From contig NC_090174.1 of NCBI RefSeq assembly GCF_024679245.1, positions 51,047,038 to 51,111,037 of the forward strand: a stretch of 64,000 nt of DNA, read 5' to 3'. Origin of the DNA: Pseudorasbora parva. Taxonomy: Eukaryota > Chordata > Actinopteri > Cypriniformes > Gobionidae. A model generated the notes under the pieces. That model ran no database searches. It was not told where the DNA came from and saw only the letters and a list, made by a program, of their open reading frames with translations. Both the position numbers and the translations under genes were made by a program. How positions within the stretch are numbered: the stretch's first letter is position 1; the number at the start of each line of letters is the position of its first letter. Below, in pieces: positions 52 to 59,914 of the stretch.

Positions 52-1513
52 AGAACAGTTTTTGATCTTTATTGAATATACCAAAGAGACATTATCCTGA
101 ATTGCCCTTTTGTGGATCACCTTAATCTTACAATTCAAAATCATGTGGCAAAGTTAAGTTTCGTTAGTTTTGTTCTCTCTGTAGACATTTTAAATTATTA
201 ATTGAGATGTCTGTTGAGCTCAAAGACTTGTTTGCGGCTGCATAATAAAGCAGTGTTTACTCCATAGCTTGTCTTCACAATCAGGGTAAATTAAGAAGAA
301 ATGTGTCACATAATCCTCTAAAGGCAGCAGACAAAAAGACTTTTGGCAGGAGGCAGGTTTGACTTTCTATAATAATGGCAAAATTATGGATACAAATCGG
401 CTATGCAAATGTATAATTAAAATATCGGCAAAATCAATCAAACTTTTCACAAATTAAGAAATCTGGTAAAAAATAGGCTGTTTACAAGTATGACTATAAC
501 TTTGTATTTATTTAGTACACTAAACTTAATTTGTCAAGATTTTCAGAATCTTTCTTCCTTATAAGCTGAATGTTACAGTAATTCTCCTGAAGAATAATCA
601 GACATATTTTTGAGAGATAGGCCTGACGTCATGGAAAACAACAGATAAATCAGAATAGTTAGTAGATTATCTGACAAGTTATCTCTCTCCCGCACGGTGA
701 AACAAATGGAATAGTGAGAGACATAGCCTATAAGACTGTGGCATCATCTGTTTTGTGAAATATTTTCTAGCTTTGACATGGTGAACTTTGTTCAGTAGTG
801 GCAAGAAAATGTATTCTCATGCAGCAAAGTTTTACCAGAGTCCTTGAGGAAACGGGGTGAACACTTTGATGAACTATTCAAAGTATTCACTATTCAAAGT
901 AGACTATTCCTTATGCCATTTTTTCTTTAAAAATGGAGTTCTATGCTGACTTTTAAAACATTTCATGCATATCCAGATTTTATTTTATTATTTAAAAGCT
1001 TACATTCTAAACCAAATCGATTACTTATTTCCTGAATTTAGTTTATTAAAAGAGTATGTTTCCTCATTAAAGGACACCAGGCATTAAAAGGTTAATGCTC
1101 CGCCTTTATTTTTATTTAATCTCTTGGGCCCAGCTCATTTTTGTTCTCTGTAGAGGACACTTGTATTTTATACATTTCTCTGATACCACACATGTCACTG
1201 TTTTAAGTGGTGTGTCTTAAAGAGGACATCATGGCCTTTCAGAGACACTAAATTTAGCAGTTTGTTCATGGCAACGTCCTTTCCTGTTTTTAAGAAATAT
1301 CTGGCAATATCAGAAGCATTAGATTTATAACAGGAGGAGGTAGGATACGGAATACATTTCAAATAAACTGGAAAACGTTAAGTGGGCTAAGGGATTTTTG
1401 TTTGTAGTTTCTTTTCTTTGTTTCTTTCGTTTTTGTTTTAATATGTAGAAGTGTGCATACAAAAATAAGCATCAAACGTCCATAAACGTCTTTGTCATTT
1501 TATTTTATTTTAG
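49..1513. other. AT-rich sequence with no gene seen
   Basis: I see no convincing exon or complete transposon here. There are many short A/T runs. It would be intron of an upstream gene if the candidate terminal exon at 1514 is real, otherwise intergenic. Confidence 0.5.
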
Positions 1514-2894: not shown

Positions 2895-42699
<39,805 letters not shown>

Positions 42700-49980: not shown

Positions 49981-50469
49981 TCAGTAGTGAGTAGCCCCAC
50001 CGTTCTTGTTGATCAATTCAAAAACTCGTTTTGGCACGCTTGATGCGACTGTTTCCAGGAGGCTGGTGGGAAAGTTGCTCCATGTGGTGAAGATGGCTTC
50101 ACGAAGGGCATCCACGGTCTGGAACTGACGTCCATTTTTGTGAACTTCCCTTGCCATCCATCCCCAAATGTTCTCAATGGGATTTAGATCAGGGGAACAC
50201 GCAGGATGGTCCAAAAGAGCAACATTATTCTCCTGGTAGAAGTCCTCCGTCAGGCGGGCTTTGTGAATTGCAGCGTTGTCCTGTTGAAAGACCCAGTCAT
50301 TACCGCACAGACGGAGGCCCTCGGTCAAGAGGGATGCCCGCTGCAACAGATCCACACAGCCAGTCGCCGTTTGACGCCCCTGCACAAAATGAGGCTCCAT
50401 TTTCCCATTGAAGGAAAAAGCACCCCAGATCATGATGGAGCCTCTTCCACTGTGCCGCGTAGAAAACAT
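49981..50469 (-). pseudogene. Tc1-like transposase, catalytic part (DD34E)
   Basis: 162-codon frame with [31 protein letters not shown] (second Asp) and [14 protein letters not shown] (Glu, spacing 34). It ends [12 protein letters not shown]. The N-terminal helix-turn-helix parts lie at 50605-50838 (RPKKILPALNRRIRRVVRED, a GRPKK-type hinge) and 50813-51064 in other frames, so the gene carries frameshifts. Confidence 0.88.
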
Positions 50470-54249: not shown

Positions 54250-56535
54250 CTGGAGCTGGTGTGCGGCTGGTAACTACAACCAACTCTTGCTTGCTACTCT
54301 TGTGTGCTGTATGATTTTTTTTCCCGTCCTTGTCTTTTGTTCATCATTTTTGTTTTATTTTTAAGCATTGGGGGGATGATAACAGGACATCCCTCTTGCA
54401 TTGCATGTTCAGGCATTTTGGGGATGGAGCAGTTAAGGGAGTGTTGTGTTTGTTTAGGTTGATTCCAAATATTAAATGTTTTTTAGAAATCGCTTGCTTC
54501 ATTTTTAACTTGGATTATTAAATGATGTTAATAGGTCGTGTTTTTTGTTTTGTTATCTAAACTATTAATATCTATTAATTTTGCATTTCAATTCATGTTA
54601 AATACACTGTATCTTACCACAGGTCCTTTGGAAATGAGCAAGACCTACCATGCTAATTCTAAATGATAATACACTTGCATTGTTTCAGACATGATGCAGG
54701 GGCAATAGCTATACAATCTCACTTTAGACTGAATGCCAGACATTCTTCTGTATGACTTATCTTGTCTCATGAAATAGCAGCAGTCCACAAGGACCTTTTC
54801 TGGCAGGGTCATTATAACCCCATGCCATTATCTGAGATACAATACTGCTGCTGGAAATCATATCAGTGCATTGTTGTGATGGTGTTGAGATGTGATGGCT
54901 TCTTTCAGTAAACACATATAAATGCTGGTTTTAGGTGAGCTGAGGATTAACTTTTTGTATCAGCGAAAAGATAACGATATGTAAATTATTCTGTAGACCA
55001 TATGGCCAAATCAAAATTCACTGCTAATGTGCAAGTAGGGTTGTCAAAATTACCAGTACTTTATTTAGGGAAATTAAATGTACTTTCAGAGTTCGATTGC
55101 CTGCCCTGGACCGAAGCCAAATTTGATTACTTCCACTGCCCCTGCTGGTCTGTGTTCATGTTATATTATTTGGGTCTGAACTGGGGTGCATTTGTGTCAT
55201 CAAAGCAGCAGCTGTTTAACCCTTTGCTTGGTAACGACTGCTAGCGAGAAGGTGGGAAAGGGCATGCCTTGCTCACTTCACTTATATATTTTTGTTTTTA
55301 AACCATTGGCTGTGTTACCAAAGCTTCAGTACGTAATGGCACTTGCGTGTATCTGCTGAGAATGTGCTGCAAATGCTCTAAAGAATGCTGAAGACGAGCA
55401 GAAATTATACAGATCTCTGCTTGCAGTATGTCAGGAAAATGAGTGAAACACTCACAAACTTTTTTAAAAAAAATCAAATCAGACGTCATTAATAGCAGTT
55501 CACTTTTAGTACCGCGATTTTAGTACAGTTGTGTTCTGATCAGCAGCGAACCGTACTGGAATTCACATGAAACGAACCTCAGACCATCTTTTAAAGCGGA
55601 CTCGGCTACAGTTTGCGGGTGCGCATCCGAGTTCGGAAGACCGCGTTCACATCGTCCAAACGAACCGAACTCTGACGTCAGTTGAGCCCGGGTTTGAAAA
55701 TATGATGATACCAGCATTTCTGCAGTGCCAGTAGTACTGAGTAATGTGTTTCTTTGGTATCAGCTGCTTTTAAATGCCAAAGATTTCTGTTTACAATGTG
55801 TTTTTGAATCGTTGATCACTGTAGCCAATCACAAACATATCTATTGAGCATGTGCAGTGTCTCAGAATGCATTCAACACCGCTCATAACACTGGAGTTTT
55901 AATTCACCGTGATCTTTGGAGTTCTGCATGTTCTCAAATCCTTTTATTATTACCAACAAGTGTAAATGCGATGTAAATAAATGATTCATTGTGCAGAGTA
56001 GACAGCCTTTTACTTGTTTTGCTGGAGTGTAGATCTCAAATGATTTGACAGCTTTAGTGATTATAAACAAAGAGCTCTTTGCTTACTTTCTGCTTGTAAG
56101 TTAACCCATATACAGTTTGGAAAAAAAGTTTTGTTTTTCATGCTGCTCAATACACTACAAAATTTTTAGCTTTACAACTGTATTTATATGTGTCATTGAA
56201 TCTGAAACTGCAATAATTGACAGTGATATAACCATAGCAACAGACAAAACAATCTGATATTGTCATTAATTTCTCACCCTCACGTTTCAAACCTATAATC
56301 TTTAGTTTATCTTCGGAACACGAACAAATATATTTCTGATGGAATCTGAGAGCTTTAATGTTTTTCGGGTAAATCTAATTGTTTTCAGGTACAGACATTG
56401 AATAACCAAATATAAAATAGCACTGCATCTTCACTGTAATGAAATATAATTAATTAATAAATACAATTTAACTGTTAAAGCTGCAAAAGTAATTTTTCTC
56501 TTTTATTGCTTGATTAATATTAGTGGCAAACAGCT
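54250..56535. other. Intron sequence with no clear feature
   Basis: AT-rich. The stretch 55500-55700 (GCGAACCGTACTGGAATTC, AACCGAACTCTGACGTCAG) looks like a degenerate miniature element, but I could not pair its ends. Confidence 0.45.
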
Positions 56536-56777
56536 TTAAAGGGTTAGTTCACTTAAAAATAAAAAATTCTGTCATTAATTACTTACCCTCATGTCGTTCG
56601 ACACCCGTAAGACCTCCGTTCATCTTCAGACACAAATGAAGATATTTTTGTTAAAATCCGATGGCTCAGAAAGGTCTTTATTTGACACTAATGTCATTTC
56701 CTCTCTCAAGACCCATAAAAGGCACTACAGTGGCTCTACAATAATTTTATGGAGCGATGAAAATTTGTTTTTGTGCG

Positions 56778-56954
56778 TGTAACAGAGGCCAGCTAGTAGT
56801 AGTTGCTTTGCGAGTAAACCTCACTCCTCTGACCTCAAGAGACGCTCTAGTGACTGACGCTAGAGGTTGCAGCCTTTAGCCTCCTTGTTAGAGCGTCCAA
56901 CTCTCATGCCGGCAGACCCGGGTTCGAGTCCCGGTCCGAACAGTAGGGGTTACA
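56778..56954 (+). repeat. 5' LTR of the miniature element
   Basis: 177 bp, TG...CA. In order: TAAACCTCACTCCT at 56815-56828, which is complementary to the interior; a stem-loop CTCTAGTG/CGCTAGAG at 56845-56865; the tRNA-like segment 56877-56942; and the end GTAGGGGTTACA. Confidence 0.82.
56877..56942 (+). other. tRNA-Glu(CUC)-like segment in the 5' LTR
   Basis: Spacing from the D arm on is canonical: A-box-like TAGCCTCCTTGTTAGAGCG, a 7-nt anticodon loop CTCTCAT (U33, CUC, A37), a 5-nt variable region, then the T arm CCGGG-TTCGAGT-CCCGG with B box GGTTCGAGTCC (56921-56931). The loop and T arm closely match tRNA-Glu(CUC). The anticodon stem and 5' acceptor strand do not pair well, so it is a derived promoter-type relic and not a working tRNA gene. 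Confidence 0.7.
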
Positions 56955-56955
56955 T

Positions 56956-56973
56956 TGGTGCCGTGACCCGGAT
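56956..56973 (+). promoter_or_regulatory. Primer binding site (tRNA-His type)
   Basis: TGGTGCCGTGACCCGGAT starts two bases after the 5' LTR. Its complement ends ...CACGGCACCA, which is the acceptor end of tRNA-His plus CCA. From memory of vertebrate tRNA-His it matches at 17 of 18 positions. It would prime minus-strand cDNA synthesis. Confidence 0.75.
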
Positions 56974-56997
56974 AGGAGTGAGGTTTAGGGGGGTGAG
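56974..56997 (+). other. Interior remainder with purine-rich tract
   Basis: AGGAGTGAGGTTTAGGGGGG then TGAG lies directly before the 3' LTR, in the position of a polypurine tract. Its first 14 bases are the exact complement of LTR positions 56815-56828. Confidence 0.6.
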
Positions 56998-57174
56998 TGT
57001 AACAGAGGCCAGCTAGTAGTAGTTGCTGTGCGAGTAAACCTCACTCCTCTGACCTCAAGAGACGCTCTAGCGACTGACGCTAGAGGTTGCAGCCTTTAGC
57101 CTCCTTGTTAGAGCGTCCAACTCTCATGCCGGCAGACCCGGGTTCGAGTCCCGGTCCGAACAGTAGGGGTTACA
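56998..57174 (+). repeat. 3' LTR of the miniature element
   Basis: 177 bp, identical to the 5' LTR except two substitutions. Its stem-loop CTCTAGCG-ACTGA-CGCTAGAG (57065-57085) is perfectly paired. tRNA-like segment at 57097-57162, B box at 57141-57151. Confidence 0.82.
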
Positions 57175-57689
57175 TGCGCAAAAAAATAAATAAATAACAA
57201 TATATATATAGTGATGGGCCGATTTCAAAACAAAGTTTCGAACCATTATGAATCAGCATATCGATTCATGATTCTGATCGTGTGTCAAACCGCCAAACTG
57301 CTGAAATCACGTGACTTTGGATGATCAGAATCATGAATCGATACACTGATTCATAATGGTTTGAACCTTTGTTTTGAAATCGGCCCATCACTATATAAGT
57401 CATTATTTAGTTGTTGTTTTTTTGTGCACAAAAACTATTCTTGTCACTTCATAAAATTATTGTATAGCCACTGACTTTGTAAAGATGTCTTTAGTGCCTT
57501 TTATGGGTCTGGAGAGAGGAAATGACATTGGTGTCAATGAAGGCCTTTCTGAGACATCGGATTTCAACACAAATATCTTCATTTGTGTCTGAAGATGAAC
57601 AGAGGTCTTACGGGTGTCGAACGACATTAGGGCAAGTAATTATTGACAGAAATTTCATTGATTTATGGGTGAACTAACCCTTTAAGGCT

Positions 57690-59914
57690 GCTGTCATTTT
57701 GAGATGAATGCCCAGTTCTTAATTTTTTTATAACTGACTGTGTTTATAAGGGTACTTGAGACGGGCATTTTGACTTTTGCATGCACGTATCCGGTCAAGC
57801 TCAAAAGATTTTTGAATTCGGTGTTTACGTGCTGTCTGTTTGCACACAGAAAACAATGCACAAGTTCCAGTCTTCCTGTGTTTAATGCTTAAACTGACAG
57901 GATTTTAAAACACAATAAACTTCCACTCTCTAATGGTTAAACTTTGCAATTAATCCACGAATCGTTTGCATTCCGACCGAGACGGAACTGATCAATTACG
58001 ATCCCTACACTTGATATCCCACATCCTGCGATGTGACTATATTGATGCTAAAACGATATATCATGCAGCCCTAGATTTCACACAATGTTGTCAAAGGTGT
58101 CTGCTGTACTACAGCAGCACACCTTGCTTTTTGGAGACCGTCATAAATTATCAATAAGCCATCAAGGATCACATTTCCTCTGTCTCTCCAAACCATGCGC
58201 TTAAGCATAGTCAGCATACCCCAACCAACATCAGCATGGTGCGGTTAACCTCTCCTTTTGTCGCACCCTGCTGTTTTTGATAAACATTCTCATGCACATT
58301 TACACACACACACAGTAATATACACCCTTTTCATGAGTCAGGATTGCCTCATGTGTCATGCTGAAGAATAAATATTGGATCAGATACATTTCATAAAATA
58401 CAAAATAAAAAACCATTATTTACTTCCTCTTACTCATATTGGTGGCAATCAGTATTGGCCTTAGTCAACAGGTTTTACTTCTCTTTCACAAGCACACATT
58501 TGACTGCTCTTTAAAGATGTTCATTGTCTTTGCTCTTTGTTTTCTTTGCTCCACAGTCAGCCAAGGACCTGGCTTGTTAAGGTTAAGCAAGCTTAGTCGT
58601 GGCTGATTTTTTGAGTGCCATTTCTCGAAGGTCCTTTGTGAAGATTTAATGGTACTTGATTATTGTATATTGAGTTTAGTTGTTTTGTTTTTTACCAAAA
58701 TTTACCCTGGTGCAAAGGAGTCATGGGCCACGTACAAACTGTAAAGATTCAGGAGCGGAAACCGCATTTGAATATGGGAGAGAATCCCTCATAATCGTTT
58801 TGTGTCTGTAATTTTACAAAAATAATATTACAGTGACCAAAGACTTATGCGAAGTGCCTGTGTGTTCACTTAATTTTTTCCTTATAATAGCTGAACCAAC
58901 TTTAAATACTTAAAATAAAGAGTAAGGCATCATTCGGATCTTTCAGAACTGTAAAGAGTTTACTTGTATTTTTATTTTATTTAAAATCACAATAAAAACA
59001 GAGCATTGCACTTTTGTAAAATAAAGAAAACTAACAAGATGCCCCTTTCTGCCCTCTCGTTTTCCTTTCCATGAACTTGTTTATGCTGCGCGTCATAAAA
59101 AAATGAACCGAAACGCAGCATACCGTATAGCCTAAAGATGTCCATATTTGTTTTCCAGGGGTTTAGATAATGTGCAGATAAAGGCATAAACAACATTTAT
59201 ATGAGTGAAATATATTTCACAAATAGATAAATTGTGAACTTGATATATAATACAACATTTACATTTACTTTAGGCAAGGCAAGTTAAGCTATAGCACATT
59301 TCATACACAATGGTAATGAAAAATGCTTTATACAGAAAAGGAATTCAAATATTTATAAGAAATAAAAAATAAGTTCCTCTATCTTTAGATTCATTTCAAT
59401 TAAGCCTGGATCATGTCATGTTTATCAAAAAATATTTAATTGGATGTAATGTTTTTTTATTTTATTTTTATTATTAGTTTCAACAACTCTTGGCTGAAAC
59501 ATGTTGGTAGCTAAAATTTTGGAAGAATCCTCACTAATATAATTTGCTTTATGGTGGTTACTTTGCTTGATAGCTGCTCTGTAAATCTCAAAGATAATTT
59601 TCATAATCTGGCTCCCCATCTACAACAGGACCCTTAGGGACCTGTTCAGAAGGGGCCCCTTTGGGGCCAATTAACTAATGTTTGTGAGTCACATCATGTA
59701 AGAAGTTCATTCATTTACAACTGTTTTTTGTGGTTTAAAAAGATCTATATGTATATGTGTGTATATGTATGTATATTTAATATGTATAATCTTAATATGG
59801 GTGATACTATGGGTTTCTCTGAAAGATAACCTTCATGATGGCCATCTGTGATGTAATTCTTATTCATTTACCTTGTTTTCTCAGCATTACCCCTCTTTCT
59901 ATTTGTCTACGCAG
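57690..59914. other. slc39a14 intron, nothing firmly recognised
   Basis: AT-rich intron sequence directly upstream of the first coding exon. No paired inverted ends or exon-like frames seen. Confidence 0.5.

Follow-up and report, generated by a model that had tools for sequence, protein, structure and literature searches.

The window, as we call the whole analysed stretch of 64,000 nt, contains a 397-bp element that lacks open reading frames of 150 or more amino acids and consists of two 177-bp direct repeats (56778-56954 and 56998-57174) separated by a 43-bp interior (56955-56997). The repeats have TG...CA termini and differ from each other only at LTR positions 31 and 74, and a TGCG target duplication flanks the element on either side. 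The evidence supports its identification as a TRIM, a miniature LTR retrotransposon, in this case with LTRs that contain a tRNA-like segment. The features are as follows (LTR and interior positions in parentheses, with the basis of each assignment).

56774-56777, unstranded: left 4-bp target duplication TGCG (sequence, empty-site alignment, locus comparison)
56778-56954, plus strand: 5' LTR, 177 bp (repeat alignment)
56815-56828, plus strand: U3 segment in the 5' LTR (LTR 38-51) that is the complement of interior 20-33 (together with adjoining positions, the best-conserved stretch of the LTR)
56841-56897, plus strand: predicted hairpin of the 5' LTR (LTR 64-120), with the A-box-like sequence in its 3' arm (fold of the 3' LTR copy; little covariation)
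56877-56888, plus strand: A-box-like sequence (LTR 100-111), imperfect (sequence; region 98-112 conserved at 0.869 versus a mean of 0.781)
56921-56931, plus strand: B box GGTTCGAGTCC, exact (LTR 144-154; motif scan)
56955-56997, plus strand: interior, 43 bp (repeat alignment, locus comparison)
56956-56973, plus strand: putative tRNA-His primer-binding site (17/18 against reference tRNA-His; genome stretch at C23:15278024)
56974-56987, plus strand: interior 20-33, complementary to U3; the first base is private to the window copy (G in 52 of 53 interiors)
56987-56997, plus strand: purine-rich tract preceding the 3' LTR (sequence)
56998-57174, plus strand: 3' LTR, 177 bp (repeat alignment)
57035-57048, plus strand: U3 segment in the 3' LTR, the complement of interior 20-33, from which it is separated by 47 nt (complement search)
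57097-57108, plus strand: A-box-like sequence of the 3' LTR (sequence; conservation)
57141-57151, plus strand: B box of the 3' LTR, exact (motif scan)
57175-57178, unstranded: right 4-bp target duplication TGCG (sequence, empty-site alignment, locus comparison)

The insertion lies within an arm of a host foldback repeat (56531-56776 versus 57426-57690). When the TRIM and one TGCG were deleted in silico, the flank aligned through the insertion point with the opposite arm (...GTTTTTGTGCGCAAAAAAA... versus ...GTTTTTGTGCACAAAAAAA...), with a single substitution at the junction. The opposite arm is an independent view of the empty site. The foldback repeat itself is long (56531-57690), with arms about 82% alike, and encloses a second palindromic element (57205-57397) with 75-nt arms that are 95% complementary. 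The window holds no second copy of the LTR or the interior, the other BLAST matches spanning only 11-22 bases.

Elsewhere in the window, three minus-strand open frames (9721-10302, 29813-30352 and 49981-50469) match DDE_3 (PF13358) and are presumably fragments of Tc1/mariner-like transposases. A 189-aa Arg/Gly-rich frame on the plus strand (2895-3464) has no match in Pfam or PDB; to us it resembles the start of a Piwi-type protein.

The tRNAs used for comparison throughout were a set of reference sequences not taken from database entries. Against this set, the primer-binding site TGGTGCCGTGACCCGGAT matches 17 of the 18 bases at the 3' end of human tRNA-His, and the next best tRNAs match 14/18. 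The sequence TGGTGCCGTGACCCGGATTCGAACCG, that is, the 18-base primer site extended by TCGAACCG, is found elsewhere in the genome, at C23:15278024. We take this stretch to be the complement of the 3' end of the host's own tRNA-His with its CCA, in which case the primer match would be 18/18. The purine tract AGGGGGGTGAG adjoins the 3' LTR on its 5' side. The architecture that the earlier note had described from this locus, namely, two 177-bp TG...CA repeats that differ at two positions, a tRNA-His-type primer site and a purine tract within a 43-bp interior, and a TGCG duplication whose removal with the element restores the host sequence, was confirmed by the repeat alignment, the primer comparison and the opposite foldback arm, respectively.

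Copies of the element were sought in the genome (1,228,657,085 bases in 79 contigs). The LTR-interior junction was detected in 734 places with up to two mismatches, compared to none for a reversed-pattern control. Window-like LTR 3' ends (22 bases, up to two mismatches) are present in 701 places and window-like LTR-interior junctions (26 bases, up to two mismatches) in 370; the resulting ratio of about 1.9, which is rough because the two patterns differ in length, does not suggest a predominance of solo LTRs. Searches of other collections yielded no matches among viral contigs (three exact patterns), genome contigs (one pattern), plasmids or phages.

For locus comparison, the best 40 of 2334 candidates were used (39 fetched loci and the window); being the best matches to the window, these 40 loci are biased toward young copies. 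Exact 4-bp duplications outside the outermost LTRs are found in 32 of the 40 loci, the window included, compared to 29 of 1560 swapped pairs. Of the other eight loci, L028, L031, L034 and L038 agree in 3/4 bases; the rest are L035 (microsatellite), L041 and L045 (both with a cut end) and L020 (inside a longer array). The left 4-mers favor Y-W-W-R, with C or T in position 1 in 34/40 loci and G or A in position 4 in 36/40; symmetric target preferences of this kind are typical of integrases. Three or more tandem LTRs with a period of 220 bp are present in 11 of the 40 loci (in L041, the third LTR is cut at position 142), and eight of these 11 arrays have exact duplications.

The median LTR divergence is 0.017 within loci (65 pairs) versus 0.045 between loci (4121 pairs), and nine of the 40 loci carry an identical LTR pair. 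In only 20/40 loci, however, does the closest within-locus pair equal or beat every pair involving an outside LTR (strictly closer in 16). This blurs the picture: many copies are nearly alike, and there may be exchange between them. Recent activity, previously proposed from the low divergence of the two window LTRs alone, is borne out by the loci with identical LTRs; the outcome that had been named as contrary to an LTR retrotransposon, copies in tandem only and devoid of interiors or duplications, was not what we found, given the presence of interiors and the exact duplications in most loci.

Beyond these close relatives, diverged copies retain the interior while LTR identity drops. In one array of about 93-bp units (L103, C14:41.05 Mb), the 'LTR' has shrunk to about 50 bp and lost its tRNA-like part, whereas in another (L106, C18:11.95 Mb) the units measure about 120 bp and the LTRs are different and short (about 77 bp). 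We read both as satellites in formation. The existence of many diverged subfamilies with the same interior implies that the lineage is not new in this genome. Two further observations concern individual copies: in L112 (C5:6155513-6156982), the tandem LTR-interior array has a period of 205 bp instead of the usual 220, and in L065, a UnaL2 LINE 3' element (RF00436, 59.8 bits; positions 633-687, minus strand) adjoins a TRIM copy.

Conservation was measured on 28 divergent full-size copies. Of 158 copies, 136 were kept and grouped into 52 clusters, from which this set was drawn after exclusion of every L106 copy, of copies whose LTR contains an interior-like motif and of those with identity below 68%. 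The mean column conservation in the set is 0.781. The A-box-like region (LTR 98-112) reaches 0.869, and the B box, at 0.789, is at the LTR average.

The B box GGTTCGAGTCC is exact in both LTRs, as had been reported in the earlier note, and has no further exact match within the window. The A-box-like sequence at LTR 100-111 is imperfect. The box motifs TAGCC and GGTTC are present; the YGG of box A is missing at the expected spacing in the window LTR, and a consensus A-box scan placed the LTR 100-111 site outside the top three, behind other places. With ARAGORN, no tRNA was called under default, intron or 90% settings; when the threshold was lowered to 80% and introns were allowed, the program called 110 tRNAs across the window, and we regard the two that overlap the TRIM (Arg and Met, with introns) as noise. 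An Rfam search of 56700-57260 with E-values up to 10 gave no tRNA row (one below 7.1 bits might be masked by the clan rule), the tRNA-related rows being 17-nt T-arm matches, mascRNA (14.8 bits) and beta_tmRNA (7.1 bits). In 20 loci with TRIM copies, no tRNA reached the Rfam gathering score. Identity as a tRNA gene was accordingly rejected.

Similarity to tRNA is nevertheless measurable. The best score of the segment against the reference tRNAs was 44, compared to a maximum of 32 in 300 letter shuffles, the likeness residing mostly in the T arm; the score of the 5' part alone, without the T arm, was equalled by 12% of 500 shuffles. The best score is shared by Gly-GCC and Glu-CTC. In a comparison of the 28 divergent copies with 14 reference tRNAs, the top-scoring tRNA was Lys-TTT alone in seven copies, Gly-CCC in six and Glu-CTC in one, the rest falling to others or ties, and a tRNA-Glu identity was rejected on this count. 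Because the similarity beats shuffling but the best tRNAs are mixed, the label 'tRNA-like' stands and 'tRNA-Glu' falls. Thus, of the 66-bp tRNA segment with an anticodon loop that had been proposed for each LTR, the tRNA-like character holds, whereas a recognizable tRNA and the assignment to tRNA-Glu(CUC) do not: the tRNA-like part of these TRIMs contains no recognizable tRNA gene, and its derivation from a Glu tRNA is not clear.

LTR positions 64-120 are predicted to form a 57-nt hairpin (z of -5.2, for a stretch picked after the fold was seen); for the fold of the whole LTR, z is -2.5, and 2 of 200 shuffles are equally good. Across the 28 copies, 84.0% of the hairpin cells pair, compared to 82.7% on average and at most 84.3% in shuffles, and there are 12 double-change cells, compared to 8.7 on average and at most 16. 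The hairpin is strong in the window sequence and weak as a conserved structure. Separately, the minus strand at 57054-57093, the complement of LTR 57-96 in the 3' LTR and hence of the 5' arm of the hairpin, resembles the D arm of the reference tRNA-Lys with a score of 33, which none of 500 letter shuffles matched. It is as though two tRNA 5' halves lay in opposite orientations within the LTR.

The best-conserved part of the LTR lies in U3: the stretch 38-51 has a conservation of 0.885, and the six best of the 164 14-column windows start at positions 36-41. In the window copy, this stretch is complementary over 14 nt to interior positions 20-33, directly after the primer-binding site. Among 3000 shuffles, none reached 14, and the maximum was 12 (in one shuffle), although these shuffles overstate the significance somewhat because the complement was noticed before testing. 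Across the family, the complement comprises 13 Watson-Crick pairs and one G.U, since the window base at interior position 20 is private. At least 12 of the 14 pairs are kept in 19 of the 28 copies; L071, L122 and L125 score low partly through interiors shifted by insertions or deletions. In an alignment of 98 distinct rows, 87% of the cells pair, compared to 39-54% when the segments are slid against each other. However, segments from the same copy do not pair better than swapped ones (0.853 versus 0.860 in the 28 copies; 7.19 versus 7.50 for own and cross pairing in 52 copies with LTR identity below 70%), and the L103 and L106 arrays keep the interior without the full U3 complement. On these two counts we do not accept the pairing as a proven structure; the U3:interior complement is a case of conservation without covariation.

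Elements of this kind have a published counterpart, so that the statement in the earlier note that no such family was known to its author does not hold for the literature, whereas its view of the element as the tRNA counterpart of Cassandra in a fish does. Kojima (2024) described Helenus, TRIMs with tRNA-derived sequence in the LTRs, introducing them as 'the twin brother of Cassandra' (PMC10886601). According to the available text of that paper, animal Helenus elements generate 4-bp duplications and have primer sites like those of Gypsy elements, the vertebrate ones being primed by tRNA-His, tRNA-Leu or tRNA-Lys; most Helenus LTRs contain TRGCY and YGG in box A and GGTTC in box B; and the fish families are aligned to human tRNA-Val in a figure legend (PMC10886601). 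The zebrafish family LTR-11_DR is represented by 5575 LTRs and 2618 interiors and forms tandem arrays, and relatives are reported from Cypriniformes, a catfish and milkfish (PMC10886601). A search of the full-text literature on LTR-11_DR, and on Helenus TRIMs since 2024, returned nothing beyond this paper in the portions accessible.

The features tested agree with Helenus, the incomplete A box aside, so the window TRIM is genuine and already explained in kind. With a probability of roughly 85%, we conclude that it is a young Helenus-type (TRIMp3) copy, most likely a relative of LTR-11_DR, with a life cycle presumably driven by Pol III and tRNA-His.

From the promoter-like boxes, we infer that the TRIM is transcribed by Pol III; in the available text of PMC10886601, Pol III transcription is unvalidated for Helenus as well, and the accessible part of a paper on zebrafish tRNA expression is silent on such transcripts (PMC11417395). 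The 397 bp of the TRIM contain no TATA, no AATAAA or ATTAAA, and no T run longer than three. TTTT is missing from 92 LTRs and 53 interiors, and is present in 11 of the 52 cluster representatives, decayed and misaligned copies among them. Past the LTR, the first TTTT lies at 4-343 nt (median 82) in 38 of the 40 loci; the fetched stretch past the LTR has none in the other two. Given the lack of a T4 terminator in the LTRs and interiors, a Pol III transcript would extend to a flanking T run.

In the proposed cycle, Pol III would recognize the 5' LTR by its A-box-like and B-box sequences, initiate near LTR 85-95, and copy the remainder of this LTR, the interior, the entire 3' LTR and then flanking DNA. 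Such read-through, a consequence of the missing TTTT, would define R as the segment from the start point to the LTR end, and the transcript would retain a usable R. tRNA-His would prime at the primer-binding site, minus-strand DNA would jump to the 3' LTR, and the purine tract would prime the plus strand, with reverse transcriptase and integrase supplied by an autonomous LTR element primed by the same tRNA.

The foremost alternative is that the tRNA-like part is a passive relic, for example, of a SINE insertion, with the B box as a remnant, and that the TRIM is transcribed by Pol II from U3 or neighboring genes. The failure of ARAGORN (at strict settings) and Rfam to call a tRNA would be expected of a relic, as would the average conservation of the B box in divergent copies (0.789 versus 0.781) and the lack of a T4 terminator in the TRIM, the 92 LTRs and the 53 interiors. 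However, the TRIM offers neither a TATA nor an AATAAA or ATTAAA signal for Pol II, the A-box-like region is one of the better conserved portions of the LTR (0.869), the B box of the window copy is exact, and boxes A and B are conserved across the Helenus families described in the available text of PMC10886601. We therefore regard a passive relic as unlikely and favor Pol III transcription from the LTR boxes.

The dependence of TRIMs on an autonomous partner is named as an unknown in PMC10886601, so far as its text was available. An autonomous element sharing both the ends and the primer site of the TRIM had been suggested as something to look for. The primer-site pattern BCATTGG... occurs in 38 places, of which 30 were fetched; 28 of these run into a Helenus-type interior, and two (L085 and L099) have no such interior after the primer site but carry Helenus LTR sequence upstream. 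The T-form of the site occurs once, in what is itself a Helenus copy. A primer site without a Helenus-like continuation was found in 39 places (26-letter matches), and two of these, L129 (C7:27.749 Mb) and L130 (C19:38.673 Mb), share the continuation CATAGATC and a gag-like element, being identical over at least 686 bases, up to the end of the shorter fetched stretch. The gag-like open frame has 479 codons, with the first ATG about 210 bases past the start of the primer site. It has no Pfam match at the cut-off (the best is PNMA, E = 0.035, 14 bits versus 25) and shows weak similarity to retroviral and Ty3 nucleocapsid sequences in PDB (E = 0.02-0.1). With a further junction pattern (up to three mismatches), 735 places were obtained, close to the count established before, and the 100 listed included no new partner. 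The clear likeness of the gag-like element to the TRIM is limited to the first 19 nt of the interior, that is, the primer site. Judging by this shared stretch, the gag-like element is a candidate partner that appears to use the same primer, and sharing of a primer site can arise independently.

It is improbable that the window TRIM is a newly arisen, unrelated element that is Helenus-like by convergence. The likeness to LTR-11_DR is one of description, not of letters, and Kojima argued for multiple origins of Helenus (PMC10886601, available text), but the primer tRNA, the duplication length, the tandem arrays and the conserved interior all agree with the LTR-11_DR relatives described there, and the genome contains many diverged subfamilies with the same interior. 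Even though 11 of the 40 loci have three or more LTRs at a 220-bp period and L103 and L106 are satellite-like, we reject as exceedingly improbable that the element is a two-unit tandem tRNA-SINE or satellite array and no LTR retrotransposon at all, because exact duplications bound 32/40 loci (29/1560 swapped pairs), including 8/11 arrays, a primer site and a purine tract lie at the LTR borders, the empty site is seen, and LTR 3' ends number 701 versus 370 junctions (rough ratio 1.9).

Returning to the Helenus-type TRIM, its U3:interior complement invites comparison with Ty1, in which the 14-nt CYC5:CYC3 complement is required for efficient reverse transcription, according to the portions of PMC5454406 and PMC4974528 available. 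Both are perfect 14-nt complements between a segment past the primer-binding site and one near the 3' end. In contrast to CYC5:CYC3, the complement described here belongs to an unrelated element, its partners are 47 nt apart in the RNA, and it lacks covariation. By this analogy, one might suppose that the RNA of fish Helenus elements has a built-in cyclisation or stem element, in which the 13-14 nt after the primer-binding site pair with U3 of the 3' LTR, so that the purine tract and the first part of U3 come to lie beside the primer site. Together with Pol III read-through past an LTR lacking a terminator, this could allow an element with an interior of just 43 bp to be used by the machinery of an autonomous element with unrelated LTRs; we put this forward as a speculative and rather doubtful proposal. 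If functional, the complement would represent a minimal signal that gives a 397-bp non-coding element access to the machinery of LTR retrotransposons. The accessible text of PMC10886601 makes no mention of the U3:interior complement, the missing terminator or the candidate partner, and these features may be new, the literature on the complement having been searched via Ty1 cyclisation.

Among the known TRIMs, plant Cassandra likewise carries sequence derived from a Pol III gene in the LTRs (PMC10886601, available text). Its LTRs contain 5S rRNA sequence and its transcript ends in the 5S part of the 3' LTR, whereas the window TRIM lacks a T4 terminator. The bivalve biv-TRIM is, like the present element, an animal TRIM with solo and tandem forms; unlike the clear tRNA-His site of the window TRIM, a canonical primer-binding site is not identifiable there, as far as the available text of PMC6934838 goes. 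The closest correspondence is with the LTR-11_DR group of Helenus, compared by description, not sequence: within the available account, there is no difference in kind, apart from the incomplete box A of the window copy. Both are TRIMs below 1000 bp with a tRNA-like LTR segment carrying box A and B motifs, a primer-binding site and a purine tract, and both generate 4-bp duplications, form tandem arrays, have a strongly conserved interior and have been recently active in cyprinids, with tRNA-His among the vertebrate primers. The present analysis thus confirms, in a further genome, that TRIMs of the Helenus type with a tRNA promoter are abundant and recently active.
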